Origin: Muribaculaceae bacterium
GTDB taxonomy: Bacteria; Bacteroidota; Bacteroidia; Bacteroidales; Muribaculaceae
Length of the DNA stretch: 64,000 bases
Direction: 5' to 3'
Assembly (NCBI GenBank): GCA_023667285.1
Contig: JAMPAK010000002.1
Location: 1-64,000, forward strand
Positions 1-64,000 of the stretch are shown here, in pieces (position 1 is the first letter of the stretch; the number at the start of each line of letters is the position of its first letter). The notes beneath the pieces were generated by a model. The model saw only the letters and a program-made list of their open reading frames with translations. It was not told the origin of the DNA and searched no databases. The translations under genes and the position numbers were made by a program.

Positions 1-24
1 GCTCTTCCTTGACAAAATATCAGT

Positions 25-390
25 TCAAGCCAGTCTGAGATTGGGGAGTACTATAATCTTTGCCGACTTCTCCCTGCGCTCACGCTTCTTGCGCTGCTCA
101 GCCGTCTCCGGCTGCTCCATCTGGTCAAGGAAGTCCTGCAAGGTCTTAATCTTGCGGTCAGAGCCGGACGTGTCAGCACCTCCACCGTCTGTTGTGGTAG
201 TGGTGGCAACCGGTGGCTTGTCGGTGTCGGTCGATGTCGTGGGACCGTCAGACGATGCCGGAGCGGTTGGTGCAGCTGTCGGTGTGGTTGGAGTCTGATT
301 CTGCACTCCATTAGGCTTAGGAGCAATAGTAGTATTGCCCTCCGGCTGTTGTGGATTGTCAAACCCTTTATTTTCTATTTCCTCTGCCAT
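25..390 (-). CDS. mobile-element protein, Pro/Thr-rich, unknown function
   Basis: A 121-residue protein lying 12 nt downstream of the interrupted phage-type gene and read in the same direction. Residues about 15-75 are low complexity (Pro, Thr, Ala, Asp, Gly), followed by a charged, probably helical segment (KIKTLQDFLDQMEQPETAEQ, then KKRERREKSAKII). Charged segments like this occur in small structural or scaffold-like proteins of Bacteroidetes phages and microviruses, but that comparison is from memory. The reading ends soon after KSAKII at a TGA at 25-27, which may be an early end compared with relatives. The rest of the element lies to the left of the window. Confidence 0.5.
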   Translation of the reverse strand: MAEEIENKGFDNPQQPEGNTTIAPKPNGVQNQTPTTPTAAPTAPASSDGPTTSTDTDKPPVATTTTTDGGGADTSGSDRKIKTLQDFLDQMEQPETAEQRKKRERREKSAKIIVLPNLRLA

Positions 391-989: not shown

Positions 990-1322
990 ATGGCAAAAGG
1001 TAAGAAAACAGGTGGCCGACAGAAAGGCACACCCAACAAGGACAACCCCCTTAAAGATTATCTTCGCGCTCATAGCATCAAATTCTTTGAGCCGAAAGAG
1101 CAAGTTGATGAGGAGACCGGACAAAAGTTCATCGCTTCCGACTTTGATATAGCGATGGCGGCTCTTGCTCCCGATGACCTCGTGGCAGCCGAATTGAAGC
1201 TGCTCGAATTCCACACGCCCAAGATGAAAGCCGTTGAAGTTGACATGGACGTGCATGGAACAGTCCACACCATCGAGGACACCCTCAAGGAACTCTGTGG
1301 CGAGACTGACGAGGACGATTAG
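990..1322 (+). CDS. small phage-type protein with GGRQKGTPNK N-terminus
   Basis: A 110-residue acidic protein starting MAKGKKTGGRQKGTPNK. This basic, glycine-containing N-terminus is typical of small DNA-associated proteins in Bacteroidetes phages and mobile elements, sometimes annotated as small terminase-like. The body (residues about 40-95) is predicted helical, and the tail ETDEDD is strongly acidic. It is transcribed divergently from the structural-type genes on its own promoter (956-963) and is followed by two hairpins, the second with a T-run. The function is not established; a packaging or DNA-binding role is inference only. Confidence 0.65.
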   Translation: MAKGKKTGGRQKGTPNKDNPLKDYLRAHSIKFFEPKEQVDEETGQKFIASDFDIAMAALAPDDLVAAELKLLEFHTPKMKAVEVDMDVHGTVHTIEDTLKELCGETDEDD

Positions 1323-1428
1323 CCCTGCGCGTCTATTTATCTACTTTTAGACGCTGCAATCCCAACCAAGCAATTCTGAACTACTTTTCATAGACGAATT
1401 TATTAGTGAATAGTGTAGAGCGACTTGT

Positions 1429-1450
1429 CTGCGAAGATAGGTCGCTTTTT
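1429..1450 (+). terminator. T-tailed hairpin after the 990 gene
   Basis: AGCGAC (1429-1434) pairs with GTCGCT (1441-1446) and is followed by a T-run to 1450. An earlier hairpin, GCGTCTA/TAGACGC at 1329-1354, directly follows the stop codon and may act with it. Confidence 0.5.
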
Positions 1451-1465
1451 CAATGCTTTAGCACC

Positions 1466-1641
1466 TGCCGAACCTTAACCGAGATAAAACCAAAAGCGAA
1501 CCGAAACGTAACCAAACAATAACCAAAACCTAAACAAACCTTAACCAATGGTTTTTTATTTACGCGCTTTTCAGTAACCGAACCTTAACCAAAGCCTAAC
1601 CGAGATAAAACCAAAAGCGAACCGAAACGTAACCTTCACGC
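1466..1641. repeat. 11-bp phased AACC repeat (iteron-like) array
   Basis: AACC starts at 1477, 1488, 1499, 1510, 1521, 1543, 1576, 1587, 1598, 1609, 1620 and 1631, all in one 11-nt register; the unit at 1532 reads AAAC and the one at 1466 TGCC. Two units (1554 and 1565) are replaced by T-rich sequence. The consensus is roughly AACCRAAANNN. Within the array, 35 bp at 1479-1513 are repeated exactly at 1600-1634 (offset 121 = 11 x 11). An 11-nt period is not a coding period, so this is a DNA-level signal with a protein-binding face near helical phase. Confidence 0.85.
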
Positions 1642-1651
1642 GCGCGCGGTC

Positions 1652-1740
1652 GGATATATCCTTTTTATGGATAAAGGAAGAATATATTAAGTCGAATATA
1701 TTCTATGGATAAAGGAAGAAAAATATAATCAATATTTTTC
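1652..1740. repeat. AT-rich block with palindromes beside the phased array
   Basis: It contains GGATATATCC (1652-1661), TATGGATAAAGGAAGAA twice (1666-1682 and 1704-1720), GAATATATT twice with the second inside the palindrome GAATATATTC (1694-1703), and a perfect 9-bp stem GAAAAATAT/ATATTTTTC (1718-1740). The composition and position suit a DNA unwinding element next to iterons, but this is inference. Confidence 0.6.
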
Positions 1741-1945
1741 TATGGAGTCGGAGTCGTTACGCGCATACACGCGCGAGGTTTTCCGACGACGCCGACGATT
1801 AAAAAAATAATTTTTGAAATTTTTCTTTTTTTGGCTGACGCGATGGAGGCATTAGTCGCGGATGAAGAGAAAAAGAAAAAGTTGCGCGAAAAAGAAAAAG
1901 AGAACGCCCGGCTCTGAAAAAATCAAAGTCGGGCGAAACGGTTTT

Positions 1946-2002
1946 CAAAACTTAAAAGATGGGGCCGGGCCGCGCGGTTTACCTTTGCAGGTGAATATTC
2001 AC
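1946..2002 (+). promoter_or_regulatory. promoter and palindromic operator before the 2019 gene
   Basis: The TACCTTTG -7 box (1980-1987) is followed by GCA. CAAAACTTAAAA (1946-1957) ends 22 nt upstream, the same placement as at the 990 promoter. The palindrome GTGAATATTCAC (1991-2002) covers the expected start of transcription and is a natural operator candidate. Confidence 0.6.
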
Positions 2003-2018
2003 CAAAATCATTTCTGAA

Positions 2019-2258
2019 ATGGACAAAACAAAAATCGAGACTCGACTTTCGGAAGGGAGCGAGTCAACTGTTCTCTCAACGTCTTTCAACAGACGATTGC
2101 TGTGCAGTCTTGCAAAGGCCGCTTATGACGGTAATACGAAACTCACAATCATCGTGGGTGACAACCTATCGGATTGGGATGTTGATGTCATCAGAGCAGA
2201 AGCACCACACAATGTCGCTTTCGATTATTCACGCTGTGATTTTCCAAAACATGAATGA
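2019..2258 (+). CDS. small mobile-element protein, unknown
   Basis: A 79-residue protein (MDKTKIETRLSEGSES...) with no family I can name. The centre (KLTIIVGDNLSDWDVDVI) reads like a beta-strand, turn and helix. It has its own promoter with a palindrome at the predicted transcription start. Its stop overlaps the next start (ATGA at 2255-2258), so the two genes should be translated together. Position between a repeat array and the recombinase suggests an accessory or control role, which is inference. Confidence 0.55.
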   Translation: MDKTKIETRLSEGSESTVLSTSFNRRLLCSLAKAAYDGNTKLTIIVGDNLSDWDVDVIRAEAPHNVAFDYSRCDFPKHE

Positions 2259-2467
2259 ACATGAAGCAGATAATCGCAAATGCCCGCGCCAAGTACTTTG
2301 ACAAGTTCGTTGGCGACATAGTGACGAACAAGGGTTATTCGCCCGAGACAGAAGCCCTCCATCCCAACGGATGGTGTGGCATGACTCCCGATGAAGCGAT
2401 GGAGTTAGCCGACAAGATTGTCGATTGGCTCTACTCACCACACGAACAGACAAAGCAGGAGGATTAA
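2255..2467 (+). CDS. small mobile-element protein, unknown
   Basis: A 70-residue protein (MNMKQIIANARAKYFDKFVG...) coupled to the preceding gene by a 4-nt ATGA overlap. The middle contains a PDEAMELADKIVDWL helix. It ends on a TAA (2465-2467) that overlaps the TAA of the convergent recombinase gene, so the two transcription units meet head-on with no spacer. No function can be assigned. Confidence 0.5.
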   Translation: MNMKQIIANARAKYFDKFVGDIVTNKGYSPETEALHPNGWCGMTPDEAMELADKIVDWLYSPHEQTKQED

Positions 2468-3957
2468 AACCCCTTGCCCTTTGTGCGCTCATACACCACC
2501 TCGCGGTCGGTGTCAAGATTTTTGATTCGGAACTGCACGGCACATTTCTCCGGGATAGTGTCGGGCAGTTTCTTCGCAAGTAGGGCTATGACCTCCTCAA
2601 CCGTGTGGAAGCCTATGTCGCTGACCTCTGCCAACACCTCGCCACGGAAGTATGCCCTTGCATACACCATCATCTTGGGCGAAAGCCGGAACAGAGTGTC
2701 TTTCGGCTCGTCAACATCGTGGGCGTTACCCTGCTTGCTCTTGGCCGTTGAGAAGAAGATAAAGTCAATGACCTTGGCATTCAACTCCCACGCCGGACTG
2801 AAGTCCAGTTTGATGTAGCCTCGTGTGATTGTGTGGCCGTGGCTGTGGTTCATGCCGAATGCCACGTCAGCAATGCTTGCTCCGCAGTCGTTCTGCGCGG
2901 TCGTACCCCAAGTATGCCGGAACGTGTAGGCGCAATACCTGTCCTCCTTGGGAATGCCCATGCTCTTGCACACCTGCTTGATGCCTGTGTTCACGTTGGC
3001 GTTGAAACTGTCTGCCGATGAGAAACGCTTGTGAAACGTGAACATGAAGGGGTCATCGTCCGCAGCTCTGTATTTCTCAACCAACGGCTGAATGATAGGC
3101 TCAACCCTCATCTCGATGTACGCATCATCAGTCCTCGCCTTGCGAGTCTTAGCCCTGCGGTAGCCGATTACCCCATCGTGGTAGTCGGTTTTCTTCATCT
3201 CGTAGAGGTCAATAGTGTTGATACCTGCAAGGCAGAGAATCATCTTCGCCACATCTCGAGCCAGTTCGGGCAGAGGGTCAATCATGCGAGTTTGGGGGAG
3301 TGGGGCAGAGAAGAATGCCCGGCACTGCTCCGCGCTGATGGCTTTCTTCTCGGCTCGATCCGCTTGCGGAATCTTCACCTTGCCCCACGGATTGGTCTTG
3401 ATGCGGATGATGCCGTTGTCGTAGTCGTTGTATTCGGCAACAGCAGCTCTGAACACCTGCCTCATGTTCACCGGGTACATCTCCTTTGCCCGGCGAGTAG
3501 CCTCCAACGACTTTATCCAGCGGTTCACCTGCACGGAGGTCAGTTGTGAGAACATGATTTGGTTCGTGCCAAAGAAACGCTCCATGTGTTGCAGGGCGAG
3601 TTTGTAGTTCTTCGCGTTGCGCATCTGCCCGTTGTCAATCATGCGGTCGATGTGCAGACGCGCATAATCGCTGAAGCAGATGTCATCGTTGCCCTTCATC
3701 AGATAGTCTACCACTTCCGCGACCGTCCATTTGCTGATGTCCTTGCGGTTCAGTCTGTCGTTGTAGTCCATGATGAGGGCTGAGCAGTAGTTCTGCACAT
3801 AGGGGTCTTTAATCTCGTTGGTCTTGGTCAGCTCCTTTCGTGTGACCATCTTGTCGGTCTTGATGTATCCGTGGCACCGGTTGTGGGTAACGCGGATATA
3901 GACCTGCAAGAATCCGTCCTTGCGCTCACCGCGCACAGTGGGTTTGAATGTTGCCAT
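2464..3957 (-). CDS. tyrosine recombinase/integrase with C-terminal extension
   Basis: A 497-residue phage-integrase-fold protein. The N-terminal arm-binding part (about 1-90) begins MATFKPTVRGERKDG, the SAM-like core-binding part spans about 90-190, and the catalytic domain about 205-385. In the catalytic domain Lys270 (RRAKTRK), Arg347 and His348 (YTFRHTW), His371 and the presumed nucleophile Tyr381 (RGYIK) can be seen. The first catalytic Arg is replaced in GINTIDL (245-251; Asn247), as in a large Bacteroidetes subfamily, and the box-II His is Tyr344. After Tyr381 another 116 residues follow, longer than the roughly 400-residue relatives I know. Four TGTACAC sites lie upstream. It most likely integrates and excises the element at 1-4150. 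Confidence 0.88.
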   Translation of the reverse strand: MATFKPTVRGERKDGFLQVYIRVTHNRCHGYIKTDKMVTRKELTKTNEIKDPYVQNYCSALIMDYNDRLNRKDISKWTVAEVVDYLMKGNDDICFSDYARLHIDRMIDNGQMRNAKNYKLALQHMERFFGTNQIMFSQLTSVQVNRWIKSLEATRRAKEMYPVNMRQVFRAAVAEYNDYDNGIIRIKTNPWGKVKIPQADRAEKKAISAEQCRAFFSAPLPQTRMIDPLPELARDVAKMILCLAGINTIDLYEMKKTDYHDGVIGYRRAKTRKARTDDAYIEMRVEPIIQPLVEKYRAADDDPFMFTFHKRFSSADSFNANVNTGIKQVCKSMGIPKEDRYCAYTFRHTWGTTAQNDCGASIADVAFGMNHSHGHTITRGYIKLDFSPAWELNAKVIDFIFFSTAKSKQGNAHDVDEPKDTLFRLSPKMMVYARAYFRGEVLAEVSDIGFHTVEEVIALLAKKLPDTIPEKCAVQFRIKNLDTDREVVYERTKGKGF

Positions 3958-4223: not shown

Positions 4224-6938
4224 TTAATCTTCGATGGCAGCCTGGGCCGCTGCGACGCGGGCGATAGGCACACGGAAGGGTGAGCATGAGACGTAGTTCA
4301 TGCCAAGCTTGGCGCAGAACTTCACTGACGAGGGTTCACCTCCATGTTCCCCACAGATGCCGACCTTGAGATCGGGGTTGGTGGAGCGGCCTTTCTTGAC
4401 ACCCATCTCTACGAGCTGGCCTACGCCCTCCTGGTCGAGGACCTCGAAGGGATCAGTTTTGATGATGCCATGTTCCTTGTAGAACTTAAGGAACTTGGGT
4501 GCGTCATCGCGCGAGAATCCGAATGTCATCTGGGTGAGGTCATTGGTGCCAAATGAGAAGAACTCGGCTACCTCTGCAATCTGGTTGGCTACGAGGGCTG
4601 CACGGGGAACCTCAATCATGGTACCAACCTTGTAGGTCACGGTGTGGCCAACTTCCTCAAACACCTTGGCTGCAGTGAGGTGGATCACCTCAGCCTGGTT
4701 CTGAATCTCCTTGAGTGAGCCTACGAGAGGAATCATAATCTCAGGATGGACGTCGATGCCACGGGCCTTCACTGCGAGAGCCGCCTCGATGATGGCACGG
4801 GTCTGCATCTCGGTGATCTCGGGATATGTGATGCCAAGACGGCAGCCACGGTGACCGAGCATTGGGTTAAACTCTTCGAGAGAGTCTACCTTAGCCTTTA
4901 CTTCCTCAAGTGTGAGACCCATTTCCTCAGCGAGTTCCTTCTGTGTGGCTGTCTGATGAGGCACAAACTCGTGCAACGGGGGATCAAGGAGGCGGATTGT
5001 GACTCCATAGCCATCCATTGCCTCAAAGATACCTTCGAAGTCTCCACGCTGCATGGGGAGGAGCTTGGCTAGTGCACGGCGACGTCCCTCTACATCAGAT
5101 GAAAGAATCATCTCGCGGACAGCCTTGATGCGGTCACCCTCGAAGAACATGTGCTCTGTACGGCAGAGACCGATGCCCTGGGCGCCGAATTCGCGAGCCT
5201 TCTTAGCATCGCGAGGTGAGTCAGCGTTAGTGCGGACAAGTGTCTTTGTATATTTGGCTGCAAGGTTCATGATTGCGCCGAAGTCGCCTCCAAGTTCGGG
5301 ATCGGTTGTGGGGACTTGTCCGTCGTAAACATCGCCTGTTGAACCGTTGAGTGAGATCCAATCACCCTCCTTATATGTCTTACCGCCCATCTCGACGGTC
5401 TTAGCCTTGTAATCGACACGGATTTCGCCAGCGCCAGATACGCAGCACTTGCCCATGCCGCGGGCTACGACAGCAGCGTGAGATGTCATACCGCCACGCA
5501 TTGTCAGGATGCCCTGAGAAACTGCCATGCCACGGAGATCCTCAGGAGAGGTCTCGATGCGGACAAGGACAACTTTACGCTTCTTCTCAGCCCAAGACTC
5601 GGCCTCGTCAGCAGAGAAGACAATCTGACCGCAGGCTGCACCGGGAGATGCGGGGAGACCCTTGGCCACAACCTTTGCACGCTTGAGGGCGTTTTTGTCG
5701 AACACCGGGTGGAGGAGTTCGTCGAGTTTCTGGGGCTCCATTCGGAGGAGTACAGTCTTCTCATCAATCTCGCCTGCGCGGAGAAGATCCATGGCAATCT
5801 TGACCATGGCAGCGCCGGTGCGCTTGCCGTTGCGGGTCTGGAGCATCCAGAGTTTGCCGTCCTGAATGGTGAACTCCATATCCTGCATGTCCTTATAGTA
5901 GTCCTCGAGTTTGCCTGCGATGGAGATGAGTTCGGCAGCACATATGGGCATTGACTCTTCGAGTGAGGGATATTTTGCCACGCGCTCGGCCTCTGATATG
6001 CCCTGGAGTGCAGCCCAGCGGCGTGAACCCTCAACGGTGATCTGCTGAGGTGTGCGGATACCGGCCACCACATCCTCGCCCTGAGCGTTGATGAGGTATT
6101 CGCCGTTAAAGATGTTCTCACCGGTGGCGGCGTCACGGCTGAAGGCTACACCTGTCGCTGAGTTGTCGCCCATATTGCCATAAACCATCGCCTGGACATT
6201 GACAGCAGTCCCCCACTCTTCTGGAATCTGGTTCATGCGGCGATAGAGGATGGCACGCTCGTTCATCCATGAGTCGAAGACAGCACAGATGCCGCCCCAC
6301 AACTGTTCCCAAGCGTCGTCAGGGAAATCCTTCTTTGTATATTCCTTCACAGCAGCCTTGAAGAGTTTGACAAGCTGCTTAAGGTCGTCGACGTTCAGGT
6401 CTGTGTCGAGTTTGACACCCTTCTCCTCCTTAACCTTGTCCATGATCTCCTCGAAGGGATCGATGTCGGTCTTCGACTTGGGCTTCATGCCGAGCACAAC
6501 GTCGCCATACATCTGTACGAAGCGACGGTAGCTGTCCCATGCGAAACGAGGGTTGCCGCTCTTCTCAGCCAGCGACTCCACAGTGGCATCGTTCATACCG
6601 AGGTTTAGCACAGTGTCCATCATGCCGGGCATAGATGCGCGGGCACCTGAACGGACAGAAACGAGAAGAGGATTGGAGGGGTCATTGAACTTCTTGCCGG
6701 TGAGTTTCTCTACATGCTCGATGGCAGCGTGTACATCTTTGTCAAGACGCTTCACAACTTCATCGCGGCCATACTGAGTATACTCGGTGCAGACCTCTGT
6801 GGTGATGGTGAAACCGGGAGGCACCGGCATACCGAGCAGATTCATCTCGGCAAGGTTCGCACCTTTGCCGCCAAGGAGATTGCGCATTGAGGCATTACCC
6901 TCAGCCTTGCCGTCTCCAAACGTATAGACTCTTTTCAT
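4224..6938 (-). CDS. ppdK: pyruvate, phosphate dikinase
   Basis: A 904-residue protein of normal length for the family. It interconverts pyruvate + ATP + Pi and phosphoenolpyruvate + AMP + PPi in the cytoplasm. The N-terminal ATP-grasp part starts MKRVYTFGDGKAEGN and carries the glycine loop RNLLGGKGANLAEM. The phosphohistidine site is GGMTSHAAVVARGMGKCC. The C-terminal PEP-utilising barrel includes GLCRTEHMFF and the catalytic-Cys motif GICGEHGGEP. The open frame extends to 7040, but MKRVYTF at 6938 is the conserved start and the longer reading would run through the promoter. It is transcribed alone. In anaerobic Bacteroidales it serves glycolysis or gluconeogenesis with PPi. Confidence 0.97.
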   Translation of the reverse strand: MKRVYTFGDGKAEGNASMRNLLGGKGANLAEMNLLGMPVPPGFTITTEVCTEYTQYGRDEVVKRLDKDVHAAIEHVEKLTGKKFNDPSNPLLVSVRSGARASMPGMMDTVLNLGMNDATVESLAEKSGNPRFAWDSYRRFVQMYGDVVLGMKPKSKTDIDPFEEIMDKVKEEKGVKLDTDLNVDDLKQLVKLFKAAVKEYTKKDFPDDAWEQLWGGICAVFDSWMNERAILYRRMNQIPEEWGTAVNVQAMVYGNMGDNSATGVAFSRDAATGENIFNGEYLINAQGEDVVAGIRTPQQITVEGSRRWAALQGISEAERVAKYPSLEESMPICAAELISIAGKLEDYYKDMQDMEFTIQDGKLWMLQTRNGKRTGAAMVKIAMDLLRAGEIDEKTVLLRMEPQKLDELLHPVFDKNALKRAKVVAKGLPASPGAACGQIVFSADEAESWAEKKRKVVLVRIETSPEDLRGMAVSQGILTMRGGMTSHAAVVARGMGKCCVSGAGEIRVDYKAKTVEMGGKTYKEGDWISLNGSTGDVYDGQVPTTDPELGGDFGAIMNLAAKYTKTLVRTNADSPRDAKKAREFGAQGIGLCRTEHMFFEGDRIKAVREMILSSDVEGRRRALAKLLPMQRGDFEGIFEAMDGYGVTIRLLDPPLHEFVPHQTATQKELAEEMGLTLEEVKAKVDSLEEFNPMLGHRGCRLGITYPEITEMQTRAIIEAALAVKARGIDVHPEIMIPLVGSLKEIQNQAEVIHLTAAKVFEEVGHTVTYKVGTMIEVPRAALVANQIAEVAEFFSFGTNDLTQMTFGFSRDDAPKFLKFYKEHGIIKTDPFEVLDQEGVGQLVEMGVKKGRSTNPDLKVGICGEHGGEPSSVKFCAKLGMNYVSCSPFRVPIARVAAAQAAIED

Positions 6939-6980
6939 TTTAATAATTAGTATTGATAATTTTTGTAATTGTTCCGAGTA

Positions 6981-7003
6981 ACAACAAGGGGTTGCCTTGT
7001 TGT
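6981..7003 (-). other. 5'-UTR hairpin of ppdK mRNA
   Basis: ACAACAAGG (6981-6989) pairs perfectly with CCTTGTTGT (6995-7003) around a 5-nt loop. The predicted transcription start from the -7 box at 7010-7017 is at about 7003, so the mRNA would begin with this stem. A 5'-terminal stem of this kind usually protects mRNA, but a regulatory role is possible. Confidence 0.6.
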
Positions 7004-7009
7004 GATTTG

Positions 7010-7041
7010 CAAAGATAGTTATTTTTCGCTCTTTTGTCAAT
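7010..7041 (-). promoter_or_regulatory. ppdK promoter
   Basis: On the minus strand TATCTTTG (7017-7010) is followed by CA, and TTGAC lies about 18 nt further upstream (7041-7036). This fits the Bacteroidetes -33/-7 pattern. Confidence 0.65.
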
Positions 7042-8312: not shown

Positions 8313-9703
8313 TATTTTTCAGACATTACAAGGGTGCCTTGGGTTGTTGTGGCGCGATTGATTTTCATAAGCAGATGTGCCACCATCACTACCGTCACAA
8401 TCGTGGCCAGGAGGTCAGAAATGGGGAATGAAGCCCACACGCCGTCGAGTCCGTAGCGGTCAGGGAGCAGCAAAAGAAGAGGGATAAGGAACAGGACCTG
8501 GCGCGTGAGCGAGAGGAACACTGAAGCGCCAGCCTTGCCAAGCGACTGAAACAGTGTCGTGGAAACCACCTGAAATCCCACCACACAGAAACAGGTCATG
8601 GCTATGGAGAGGCATCTTACGGTCTCGGCTATCAAGTGCTCATCCGTCGTGAACGCCCTGGCTATATAGCCGGGAATTGTCAGACCGAAAACCTGGCCTG
8701 TTGTCACGACAATAGTGGCAGCCCCGATGGCTAACCAGTATGTACGTCGAAGCCTGTGGAGGAGCCTTGCACCATAATTATATCCAAGGATTGGCTGCAT
8801 TCCCTGGCAGAGGCCAACTACAACCATGGTCATGAGCGAGGTGTAGGAGGTAAAGATTCCGGCAGCTCCTACAGCAATATCTCCACCATATAAATAAAGA
8901 GACTTATTGATTATGACATTGATGAAACAGGCTGCGGCATTGACGAGGCTTGGGGCAGCTCCGATGGCTATGATGGGGAAGATTATCTTTAACGAGGGGA
9001 TATACATGCTCCTATCGTTCAAAAATTTGAGATTGCTCCGGGTGTTGAAGAAATGAGCCATCACGAAAATGGCTGACACAAGCATGGAGATATCTGTTGC
9101 GATAGCGGCCCCCTTTATGCCCATGTCAAACTTGAAGATGAATAGCGGGGCCAGACATGCGTTGAGTCCGGCACCGATAAACATAGTCACCATGGCCTTG
9201 ACAGGATAGCCTGACACCCTCATGAAATTATTGAATGTGAAGGCGAAGTTAGTCATCAACATGCCCGGGAGGATATATAGCATGAAATCGCGGGCGTATG
9301 GGAGAGTCACGTCACTTGCGCCAAAGGCCGTGAGAATCTCATCGATGAATATGGCGAAGATGCTCAGATAGACAACGATGATGCAAGCGAGCGTGACTAG
9401 AGCATTTCCGAGTGTGCGCGAGGCTCCGGCATAGTCCTTGGCGCCAAGTAGGATAGAGATCCTGGCCGAGCCGCCTGCGCCAATCAGTACGCCCAGGGCG
9501 GCAGACAGGTTCATGACAGGAAATGTTATGGCTAGCCCGGCAATGGCCTCAGGACCGACCCCCTGCCCGATAAAGATGCGGTCCACCACATTATATAATG
9601 CGGTCACCATCATACCTACGATGGCAGGCAAGCTATATTTCCATAAAAGGCGCCCCACGGGCATCGAGCTGAGTTCTGTGAGCTTTTCCCTATCGTTGTG
9701 CAT
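8312..9703 (-). CDS. MATE-family multidrug/cation exporter
   Basis: A 463-residue polytopic membrane protein. The start RLLWKYSLPAIVGMMVTALY and the motif NVVDRIFIGQGVG are hallmarks of the MATE family, and two repeated six-helix halves can be followed through the sequence, as in NorM and MepA. Members export drugs or metabolites in exchange for Na+ or H+; the substrate cannot be told from sequence. It is the first gene of a two-gene unit with the FtsX-type permease (1-nt overlap). Confidence 0.93.
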   Translation of the reverse strand: MHNDREKLTELSSMPVGRLLWKYSLPAIVGMMVTALYNVVDRIFIGQGVGPEAIAGLAITFPVMNLSAALGVLIGAGGSARISILLGAKDYAGASRTLGNALVTLACIIVVYLSIFAIFIDEILTAFGASDVTLPYARDFMLYILPGMLMTNFAFTFNNFMRVSGYPVKAMVTMFIGAGLNACLAPLFIFKFDMGIKGAAIATDISMLVSAIFVMAHFFNTRSNLKFLNDRSMYIPSLKIIFPIIAIGAAPSLVNAAACFINVIINKSLYLYGGDIAVGAAGIFTSYTSLMTMVVVGLCQGMQPILGYNYGARLLHRLRRTYWLAIGAATIVVTTGQVFGLTIPGYIARAFTTDEHLIAETVRCLSIAMTCFCVVGFQVVSTTLFQSLGKAGASVFLSLTRQVLFLIPLLLLLPDRYGLDGVWASFPISDLLATIVTVVMVAHLLMKINRATTTQGTLVMSEK

Positions 9704-9884: not shown

Positions 9885-9915
9885 ATGGAATAACCTGTAA
9901 TACAATCATTAACAG

Positions 9916-10236
9916 ATGTACGCAATTGTAGAAATCCAGGGACAGCAGTTCAAGGCAGAGCCTGAGAAGTTCCTGTATGTTCACTATCTCGGCGATGCAA
10001 CTAAAGAAGGAGACACTGTAGAATTCGACCGCGTCCTCCTCGCTCAGTCCGATGACACCGTAAAGGTAGGCGCCCCCGTGCTCGAAGGAGCAAAGGTGGT
10101 TTGCCAGGTTCTCACCCCCCTCGTGAAGGGCGACAAGGTGATCGTCTTCAAGAAGAAACGCCGCAAGGGCTATCGCCGCAAGAATGGTCATCGCCAGTTC
10201 TTCACCAAAGTCTTAATTAAAGAAGTAGTTGCTTAA
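9916..10236 (+). CDS. rplU: 50S ribosomal protein L21
   Basis: A 106-residue protein starting [20 protein letters not shown], the standard L21 N-terminus, with the C-terminal basic [17 protein letters not shown] segment that binds 23S rRNA. Length is normal. It is followed 21 nt later by rpmA, the near-universal pairing. A structured leader of about 90 nt precedes it. Confidence 0.98.
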
Positions 10237-62852: not shown

Positions 62853-64000
62853 CTATTTATAACGTGTCCATTTGATGATTTCCTTCACAGAAGGTTTCTT
62901 GCCATACATGAAGATGCCGACACGATATATCTTTCCAGCCATCCAAACGAAAAACAGGAAACTGATGACAAGAAGCACTATTGAGAGCACAATCTCCCAG
63001 GAGGGTATTCCGAACGGTATGCGCGCTACCATCACCATCGGGGCAGTGAGCGGGAAGAGAGATGACCAGAATGCAATCGGGCCTGAGGGATCGGCAGCCG
63101 CCGTCATCGAGAAAATGAGGCCAAACACAATGGGGAAAACTGCAAACGATGAGAGTTGTGAGGCATCCTGGATATTGTCGACAGCCGAGCCGATTGCCAC
63201 AAATATGGATGAGTAGACCAGGAATCCCAGTATTAGGAAGACTGTCATCAGCGCGACCAGCGAGATGACATCGCCCACCTGTGTGAGCGAGGCCAACGCT
63301 TGGGTCATCTCGAGTGACTCCTGATTGCTCACGCTTGCCATATTGCCTGACTGAATCGCAGTTATATCGGCCATGGTCTCCGTCGGAAGAAGGGCGGGCA
63401 GGATGAATCCTGACATGACGGAAAGCAGAATTCCCCAAAGAAGAATCTGAGTCAGCGCCACGAGAGCCACTCCAATTATCTTACCCAGCATCAACTGCAT
63501 GGGTTTGACAGAGGTCACTACCACTTCGAGAACACGATTCCCCTTCTCCTCTATGATTGAGGTCATCACCATCTGTCCGTAAATAAGGATGAACATGTAT
63601 AGTATGAACGACATCCCAATGCCAATCCCATAACTAAGGCCCGAGGAGAGCGCCTCCTCGCTGTCTTTGTCAGTGCGGATTGTGCTGATGGAGACATTGC
63701 TCTCCACCTCATCAAGTATCTTGTCGAGGTTTTCGATTTCATAGTGTGACAGCCGCTCCTTCTCAACGATTTCATTGATCTGCCGTGTGATGGTCCCCTC
63801 TGTTATCATGGAGGCCGGCCCGTCGCTGAACACCTTGAGCGAGGAGTGCTTTGAGTCGATGATGTTTGACGGGATGACCAATACGGCATCATGCCCATCG
63901 GCCATCAATGCTGAATCCTGTGTGACATCAGGTGTGGCCACCTTGAACTTCACCTCATCTGTGTCAGTCAGTTTTGTAGCCACAACACCGCTGTTGTCGA
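62853..64000 (-). CDS. ABC-2 type transporter permease (NatB-like), partial
   Basis: At least 382 residues of a membrane protein whose reading frame stays open to the window end, so the N-terminus is missing. The visible part starts in a periplasmic domain (VVATKLTDTDEVKFKV), with transmembrane helices at YGIGIGMSFILYMFILIYGQ and four more towards the C-terminus, and the cytoplasmic SIIEEKGNRVLEVVVTSVKP motif typical of NatB-like ABC-2 permeases. Such permeases work with a NatA ATPase, expected upstream outside the window, to export Na+, drugs or lipids. An alternative GTG at 63983 is unlikely because coding continues above it. Confidence 0.88.
   Translation of the reverse strand, partial: DNSGVVATKLTDTDEVKFKVATPDVTQDSALMADGHDAVLVIPSNIIDSKHSSLKVFSDGPASMITEGTITRQINEIVEKERLSHYEIENLDKILDEVESNVSISTIRTDKDSEEALSSGLSYGIGIGMSFILYMFILIYGQMVMTSIIEEKGNRVLEVVVTSVKPMQLMLGKIIGVALVALTQILLWGILLSVMSGFILPALLPTETMADITAIQSGNMASVSNQESLEMTQALASLTQVGDVISLVALMTVFLILGFLVYSSIFVAIGSAVDNIQDASQLSSFAVFPIVFGLIFSMTAAADPSGPIAFWSSLFPLTAPMVMVARIPFGIPSWEIVLSIVLLVISFLFFVWMAGKIYRVGIFMYGKKPSVKEIIKWTRYK

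Follow-up and report, generated by a model that had tools for sequence, protein, structure and literature searches.

We propose that an array of AACC tetramers phased at 11 bp, carried by a prophage remnant of a Muribaculaceae bacterium, supplies the iterons of a phage replication origin located apart from its initiator gene, a reading to which we give a probability of roughly 0.84. The strongest evidence for such a detached origin is the either/or placement of another repeat, TTTCTTCSGAAG, in three related phage isolates, in which it occupies either the initiator gene or the integrase-side gap. At the level of sequence, the support shown for the proposal further comprises the phased array itself, its spacing from a GC-rich block, the unstable DNA beyond, covarying dyads, an association with DUF6291 and other initiator genes and a match to the origin of phage Tuc2009. 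The window (that is, the whole stretch of 64,000 nucleotides analysed) forms the first part of contig C15 in its genome (G000), and the prophage spans position 1 to about 4100, its left part missing. Inside this remnant, the array stands between a small DUF5681-like gene and the integrase gene, whose 3' end is about 0.8 kb away (Table 1).

Table 1. Features of the array and its surroundings in the window (positions count from the first nucleotide of the window).
Feature	Position	Strand	Remarks
Small gene with motif TGGRQKGTPNK	990..1322	+	DUF5681-like by the name of its BF1-TP2 counterpart; left neighbour of the array
Hairpin, then T-run	1420..1450	+	Read by eye; similar stretches in relatives
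Iteron block 1	1477..1553	+	Unit AACCRAAMNNW; ends in dyad AACCAATGGTT
T-rich interruption	1554..1575		Two 11-bp units, at 1554 and 1565
Iteron block 2	1576..1634	+	Final AACC at 1631, 8 bp ahead of the GC-block match
GC-rich block CACGCGCGCGCGG	1637-1649	+	Preceded by TT after the final AACC (1631)
Predicted DNA unwinding element	1655..1745		78% AT; two copies of TATGGATAAAGGAAG, each ahead of a perfect dyad
Dyad 1, AGAATATATT-AAGTCG-AATATATTCT	1679..1704	+	
Dyad 2, AGAAAAATAT-AATCA-ATATTTTTCT	1717..1741	+	
TACCTTTG	1980..1987	+	Fits TAnnTTTG, the Bacteroidota -7 motif; ahead of the small ORFs
Two small ORFs	2019-2258 and 2255-2467	+	Without a PHROGs match (E below 0.2) or a Pfam match (E up to 1)
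Tyrosine integrase	2464..3957	-	phrog_1 integrase, E 5e-18; Phage_int_SAM_5, E 4e-6

Between 1440 and 1660 there are 16 AACC tetramers, 12 of which share one register modulo 11 (starts at 1477, 1488, 1499, 1510, 1521, 1543, 1576, 1587, 1598, 1609, 1620 and 1631), and 5,000 dinucleotide-preserving shuffles of the same interval gave at most six in one register. The twelve-unit register that a first-pass annotation had claimed from the letters alone is thus borne out, as are its two T-rich interrupting units. Some of its other details needed correction: of the two near-copies that it named, the one at 1532 (AAAC) is a single base off and the one at 1466 (TGCC) is poor, and the duplication that it gave as 35 bp is in fact 38 bp long (1476-1513 and 1597-1634), its offset being exactly eleven units (121 bp), as stated. 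A strict five-unit pattern matched three times, overlapping and only in the array, across the 64-kb window, and not at all in 100 shuffles. A search of a phage collection at the DNA level with 1300-2020 returned short matches only (E 0.2 or worse), and Rfam had no match up to E 0.1 in 1300-2500.

As had been noted, a palindrome-bearing AT-rich block adjoins the array, and the least stable 80 bp of the entire window start within it, at 1663. In relatives, where stability was ranked over 36 to 68 kb each, the stretch after the array holds rank 1 in G051, 2 in G289, 3 in G281 and in the isolate BS-TP4, and 5 in G177, and only rank 13 in G205 and 14 in G128. The least stable stretch of G139 directly precedes the array, which is followed by one of rank 19; the G137 array is overlapped by a stretch of rank 15 and followed by one of rank 30. 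Near two in-gene iteron sites, no stretch was among the 40 least stable. A match to the GC-rich block was found in 16 of the 17 regions compared. The distance from the final AACC to this block is 8 bp in six of the 17 (the window, L002, G090, G031, G137 and G205) and 19 bp, that is, one unit more, in L005, L006, L008 and G051, in which the last unit is, by eye, one base short of AACC; the remaining regions have other spacings.

The dyads beyond the GC block show signs of having changed in a paired manner. In six sequences, four of the ten pairs of dyad 1 are changed on both sides (nine such cells, versus 2.3 in shuffles), and dyad 2 has up to five compensated positions relative to the window, although its full pairing is no evidence because the arms were chosen as perfect dyads. 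A dyad after the GC block goes beyond mononucleotide shuffles (P of 0.05 or less) in 19 of the 25 regions tested, the six without one being G289a, G195, G177, G186, G002 and G188. A bacterial oriC with DnaA boxes and a DnaA-trio was considered and rejected: 1300-2020 contains no exact copy of the DnaA box TTATNCACA and two sites with one mismatch. Two TTATCCATA words on the minus strand (1666-1674 and 1704-1712), one mismatch from the DnaA box, each stand ahead of a dyad; we claim no excess of such sites over chance.

The same place was then compared in other elements. A search with the small gene kept 80 IMG/VR loci, many of them alike only in the N-terminal motif, and matched 37 of the 297 genomes of the family, the window's own genome included. 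We read the stretch after the small gene in 45 hand-picked sources, not all of them relatives, and scored 42; three of the 45 lack the small gene by pattern (G281 and G272, both of which were read by eye, and G087, whose stretch has no array). In 15 of the 41 scored relatives the same place has, within 160 bp, five or more AACC sharing an 11-bp register. The 143 in-register units from 15 regions give the consensus AACCRAAMNNW, in which the invariance of AACC proves nothing because AACC was the selection criterion. Weaker AACC arrays are present in G128, G097 and L013, G283 has AAGC instead of AACC every 11 bp, and other relatives carry quite different repeats at this place. The first-pass annotation had asked whether register is conserved among related elements: phase is kept inside each block, but in several relatives it is lost across the interruption (block 2 is offset from the register of block 1 by 1 in L005, L006, L008 and G051, and by 3 in G031), and we therefore regard phase within a block as the conserved feature. 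It had also named relatives that keep the flanking genes and lack the periodicity as evidence against a functional array. Relatives that keep these genes without AACC every 11 bp (hereafter AACC-11) do exist. Many of them have other repeats there; in two isolates it is the initiator gene that carries iterons, and in G216, G235, G290, L016 and L017 no repeats are visible at the place.

The isolates in question are three temperate Bacteroides phages, BKO1-TP3, BS-TP4 and BF1-TP2, which were found with the portal protein of G289 as query (66%, 65% and 43% identity, respectively) and have a similar gene order. Each carries a small gene of the TGGRQKGTPNK type, with the GTPNK motif (gp58 of BKO1-TP3, gp62 of BS-TP4 and gp71 of BF1-TP2, the last named DUF5681), and each encodes a DUF4373 protein (Lin1244 type) annotated 'replication initiation protein'. 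In BKO1-TP3 and BF1-TP2, TTTCTTCSGAAG is found only inside the initiator gene, at 9907-9931 and 8887-8911, in both cases as two copies 21 bp apart. In BS-TP4 it is confined to the stretch from 63032 to 63429, within the gap that separates integrase and small gene. BKO1-TP3 keeps the integrase, and the gap of about 150 bp to its DUF5681-like gene is without an array. TTTCTTCSGAAG also occurs in the prophage loci G002, G188, G186, G135 and G064, by eye within their detached arrays. Beyond their in-gene repeats, BKO1-TP3 and BF1-TP2 have the word GTACACAAA, and GTACAYAAA follows the detached repeats of G177, G239, G165, G117, G054, G172 and L003; on its own this likeness is weak because the word is found elsewhere too (in BS-TP4 and BF1-TP2, and ahead of the G223:C14 array). 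Since iterons stand in one place or the other in phages of this kind, we read the array of the window as the probable detached form. The either/or placement concerns isolates with Lin1244-type initiators, and its application to AACC-11 is an extension, which is backed by the comparison of G139 with L161 (below); among the phages of this kind that we examined, no pair with AACC-11 and DUF6291 in both arrangements was found. A literature search, mostly without subscription papers, returned no paper naming BKO1-TP3, BS-TP4 or BF1-TP2.

As for the initiator that might recognize AACC-11, the fuller relatives point to the DUF6291 family. In G139, G205, G051 and G281, which have AACC or AACC/AAGC every 11 bp, the early end of the element, far from the array, has a DUF6291 gene together with genes for recombination, nuclease, helicase and HU-like proteins (named by eye); array and DUF6291 gene are about 49 kb apart in the prophage of G139. 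The DUF6291 domain of G139, whose array is detached, is 68% identical over 80 amino acids to that of L161, whose array is within the gene. Elements that have a Lin1244-type initiator on the contig (G177, G239, G135 and G223:C47) carry other repeats at the array place. In pairs taken from single contigs, AACC/AAGC-11 accompanies six of eight DUF6291 and none of four Lin1244 elements (Fisher P 0.061, not significant alone), and when genome-level pairs on different contigs are added, nine of 13 and none of eight (Fisher P 0.0046). We compiled these tables manually, judging the class of G281, G272 and G223:C47 by eye, and left out G283 (AAGC-11, with DUF6291) because that genome holds both initiator families. 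The near-identical pairs G051/L008 and G090/G081 do not count as independent, and the score of G189 covers only 140 bp. Exceptions are G307/L012 and G310/L015, which have DUF6291 on the same contig and other A-rich repeats; G195 and G290 have DUF6291 without a strong AACC-11 array. An in-gene array of the three kinds tested was absent from all 16 prophage initiator genes that could be resolved among 20 loci (four could not).

The gene after DUF6291 in G205, G051 and G281 encodes one family of ATPases (47 to 51% identical), with weak AAA hits below the Pfam cut-offs, which we read as a putative helicase loader. A blastp search of part of BS-TP4, the gene annotated as a DnaC-like helicase loader included, gave no match to this ATPase. 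The early end of G139 has a cytosine methyltransferase-like gene after DUF6291 and no loader-like ATPase that we could find, and the idea that a loader-like gene always follows DUF6291 was dropped. The DUF6291 profile had no match up to E 1 among PDB sequences. In a profile comparison of DUF6291 with the GWIKLHR initiators, the alignment (probability 29) takes in the linker coded by the repeats and some of the C-terminal half; because it covers just these parts, we do not claim common descent of the N-terminal domains. No paper containing DUF6291, or DUF4373 together with phage and replication, came up in the literature search, again mostly without subscription papers.

Phased AACC repeats are by no means confined to this prophage kind. 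IMG/VR contains at least 120 stretches in which five AACC follow one another at 11-bp steps; among 120 listed, 101 lie inside an ORF of at least 120 amino acids, 90 of these on the same strand, and 77 of the AACC-11 stretches listed have heterogeneous spacers. Family scans covered 95 of the 101 ORF proteins, six contig-edge ORFs being left out. Among these 95 listed proteins, DUF6291 was the most frequent Pfam family (29), followed by DUF1376 (9) and Phg_2220_C (3), and the overlapping PHROGs sets were phrog_16304 (no function named; 40), phrog_270 ('replication initiation protein'; 33), phrog_2514 ('DnaD-like helicase loader'; 32) and phrog_186 (DnaD-like helicase loader; 31). As 11 is not a multiple of three and the step is kept through all coding frames, a constraint on the DNA is indicated. 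In GTDB genomes searched with six units, 32 of the 118 stretches listed have heterogeneous spacers, and at least seven of the 32 lie in genes that are DUF6291-like in their N-terminal sequence by eye (Bacteroides and Clostridia-type hosts).

Scans for AACC every 10 bp (AACC-10) and ACAC every 11 bp (ACAC-11) failed as negative controls: their ORFs match initiator families too, and phased in-gene iterons therefore look general. Among 55 listed AACC-10 proteins (three of 58 being contig-edge ORFs and left out) there were 31 matches to phrog_16304, 12 to phrog_9474 and 11 to phrog_270, and among 49 for ACAC-11 (four of 53 left out likewise) 29 to phrog_2514 and 28 to phrog_186; for these patterns, as for AACC-11, the counts are among the matches listed and permit no comparison between patterns. 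The off-pitch pattern of AACC every 13 bp gave 56 stretches in the whole collection, 10 of them with heterogeneous spacers. Phased in-gene iterons with other words or steps (ACAC-11 and AACC-10) in phage initiator-family genes were seen in the loci L319-L558.

The first-pass annotation knew of no described system with this signature, a view that is contradicted by the many initiator-family genes above and by Lactococcus phage Tuc2009, whose rep gene (orf16) has AACC at offsets 342, 353, 364 and 375, that is, four units spaced by exactly 11 bp, with short GGATAG/TAGG-type repeats after them on that strand. The record of this gene notes that it 'contains origin of replication'. This origin, which is reported to have been demonstrated by experiment, differs from the array here in lying inside the initiator gene and in having four units rather than twelve; neither a GC block nor hairpins were noticed there, and the initiator is not DUF6291 but resembles that of L102 (65% identity over 155 amino acids), which matches Phg_2220_C and whose gene has a longer AACC-11 array. 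The rep gene of TP901-1 has no AACC-11, its strongest period being 15. In lambda, loader gene P adjoins O, and the iterons are four to six in number, with longer units than those of the array; nor is that origin detached. What ori-lambda has in common with the array is the combination of iterons with an AT-rich region, there in the middle of initiator gene O, according to PMC7466680. Bacillus phage SPP1 (gp38/gp39/gp40) likewise has direct repeats and an AT-rich unwinding element, bound by the phage initiator, and a phage helicase loader, its oriL lying in gene 38 and its oriR about 13 kb away, as PMC6316719 describes. The repeats and proteins of SPP1 are different, and one SPP1 genome has both places, whereas each isolate has one or the other. 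BKO1-TP3, BS-TP4 and BF1-TP2 are phages of the same kind and, in BS-TP4, have detached iterons, but their initiators are of the Lin1244 type and their iterons are TTTCTTCSGAAG, not AACC-11.

With these systems in view, other roles for the array can be weighed. Its position inside the element, close to the integrase, would suit arm-type sites for the integrase or a directionality factor, and yet BKO1-TP3 keeps its integrase beside a gap that has no array, the iteron type on the integrase side in BS-TP4 is found only in the initiator gene of the two other isolates, and AACC-11 arrays belong to phage initiator genes in general; we consider such sites very unlikely. Much the same holds for a packaging (pac) site read by an adjacent small terminase. 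The neighbouring gene has a basic GGR-KGTPNK motif, which is seen in some terminase small subunits, but BKO1-TP3 and BF1-TP2 keep this gene with no iterons next to it and another small gene stands directly beside the terminase, so that a pac site is highly improbable.

The parC centromere of plasmid R1 consists of 11-bp direct repeats in two sets, a likeness that could suggest a partition-type, ParR-bound centromere maintaining an excised or plasmid-like form. We noticed no ParM/ParR-like pair among the ORFs listed for relatives or in the annotations of the isolates, however, and partition gives no reason for an either/or placement with initiator genes, which leaves a centromere with little to recommend it. 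Intrinsically curved DNA, in which phased A-tracts would aid transcription or packaging with no dedicated protein, would account for A-rich stretches every 11 bp, but AACC and the 11-bp step persist in L141 and other phages whose spacers lack this A-richness, and we hold curvature as the purpose of the array to be most improbable. Decay of a coding sequence was also considered, given that the array resembles the linker-coding part of DUF6291, and was rejected because no flanking coding homology was seen by eye.

We thus return to a detached origin. The array has the phased direct repeats of an iteron origin and adjoins the AT-rich block that ranks first in the window; a cognate initiator in the same phage is found in relatives, and none was found in the part of the contig in the window or in the genome. 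The array lies neither within nor beside an initiator gene, and the oriR of SPP1 shows that such nearness is not obligatory. The suggestion of the first-pass annotation that these are iterons beside an unwinding region is supported by the arrays of relatives, the arrays in initiator genes, the adjoining least stable 80 bp and the isolates. We suggest that a DUF6291-type initiator, an early gene product in the fuller relatives, would bind the AACC units, which recur once per helical turn, to form an ordered array on one face of the DNA. It may then melt the AT-rich block beyond the GC-rich block, upon which the host replicative helicase would be brought in, in some relatives possibly by the loader-like ATPase that the following gene encodes, as lambda O/P and SPP1 gp38/gp39 suggest by analogy. 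We lean slightly towards a broader scenario, in which DUF6291 proteins are initiators that read an AACC-every-11-bp code and the origin is a movable cassette, housed either in the linker-coding part of the initiator gene or, detached, in the integrase-side gap; when a different initiator family takes over, the cassette would be exchanged together with the initiator gene lying far from it.

Iteron origins are a known kind; what looks new is the detachment, the joint exchange with the initiator family and the link to DUF6291. DUF6291, a 'family of unknown function' in Pfam, would gain a testable function, and phage origins outside initiator genes could be located by a DNA signature. Matched exchange of an initiator and its distant repeats would amount to a natural experiment on iteron recognition, and the isolates offer origins in or out of coding sequence among closely similar phages. 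If the code and cassette scenario is true, helically phased in-gene iterons (AACC-11, AACC-10, ACAC-11 and others) would form a recognition code that is widespread and readable from sequence.

Replication of the integrated element, which the first-pass annotation had raised, does not follow, as this copy is truncated or broken. Homology of the first prophage gene ends near position 50 (window 1-50) and a small gene at 403-900 has an in-frame stop; the start of the window holds a truncated, probably cryptic prophage or a contig-end artefact, and given the truncation and the in-frame stop we regard the window's own copy as probably a cryptic remnant. The genome has no match to PF19808 (DUF6291), to PF14297 (Lin1244) or to the loader-like protein of G205, which is not proof of absence because the genome is 93.8% complete and its contig ends inside the element. 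The hairpin and T-run at 1420..1450, read by eye as the end of the preceding transcript, were not among the results of a terminator scan.

Several minor observations concern the same elements. Two more terminase relatives are present in G000, at C11:352608-354377 (73% identity), apparently alone among host genes, and at C18:324-1910 (44%). Beyond the integrase end, the window has a pyruvate phosphate dikinase gene (4224-7040, named by eye), which adjoins the integrase in G057, G051 and L010 too and perhaps reflects a shared integration site. A giant protein of about 5000 to 7000 amino acids recurs in these phages (L242/L243 7951-28932, joined coordinates), its BKO1-TP3 counterpart being annotated as DarB-like antirestriction. 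BKO1-TP3 and BS-TP4 each have an annotated reverse transcriptase (L623 23818-25308 and L625 35987-37477), perhaps part of a diversity-generating element.
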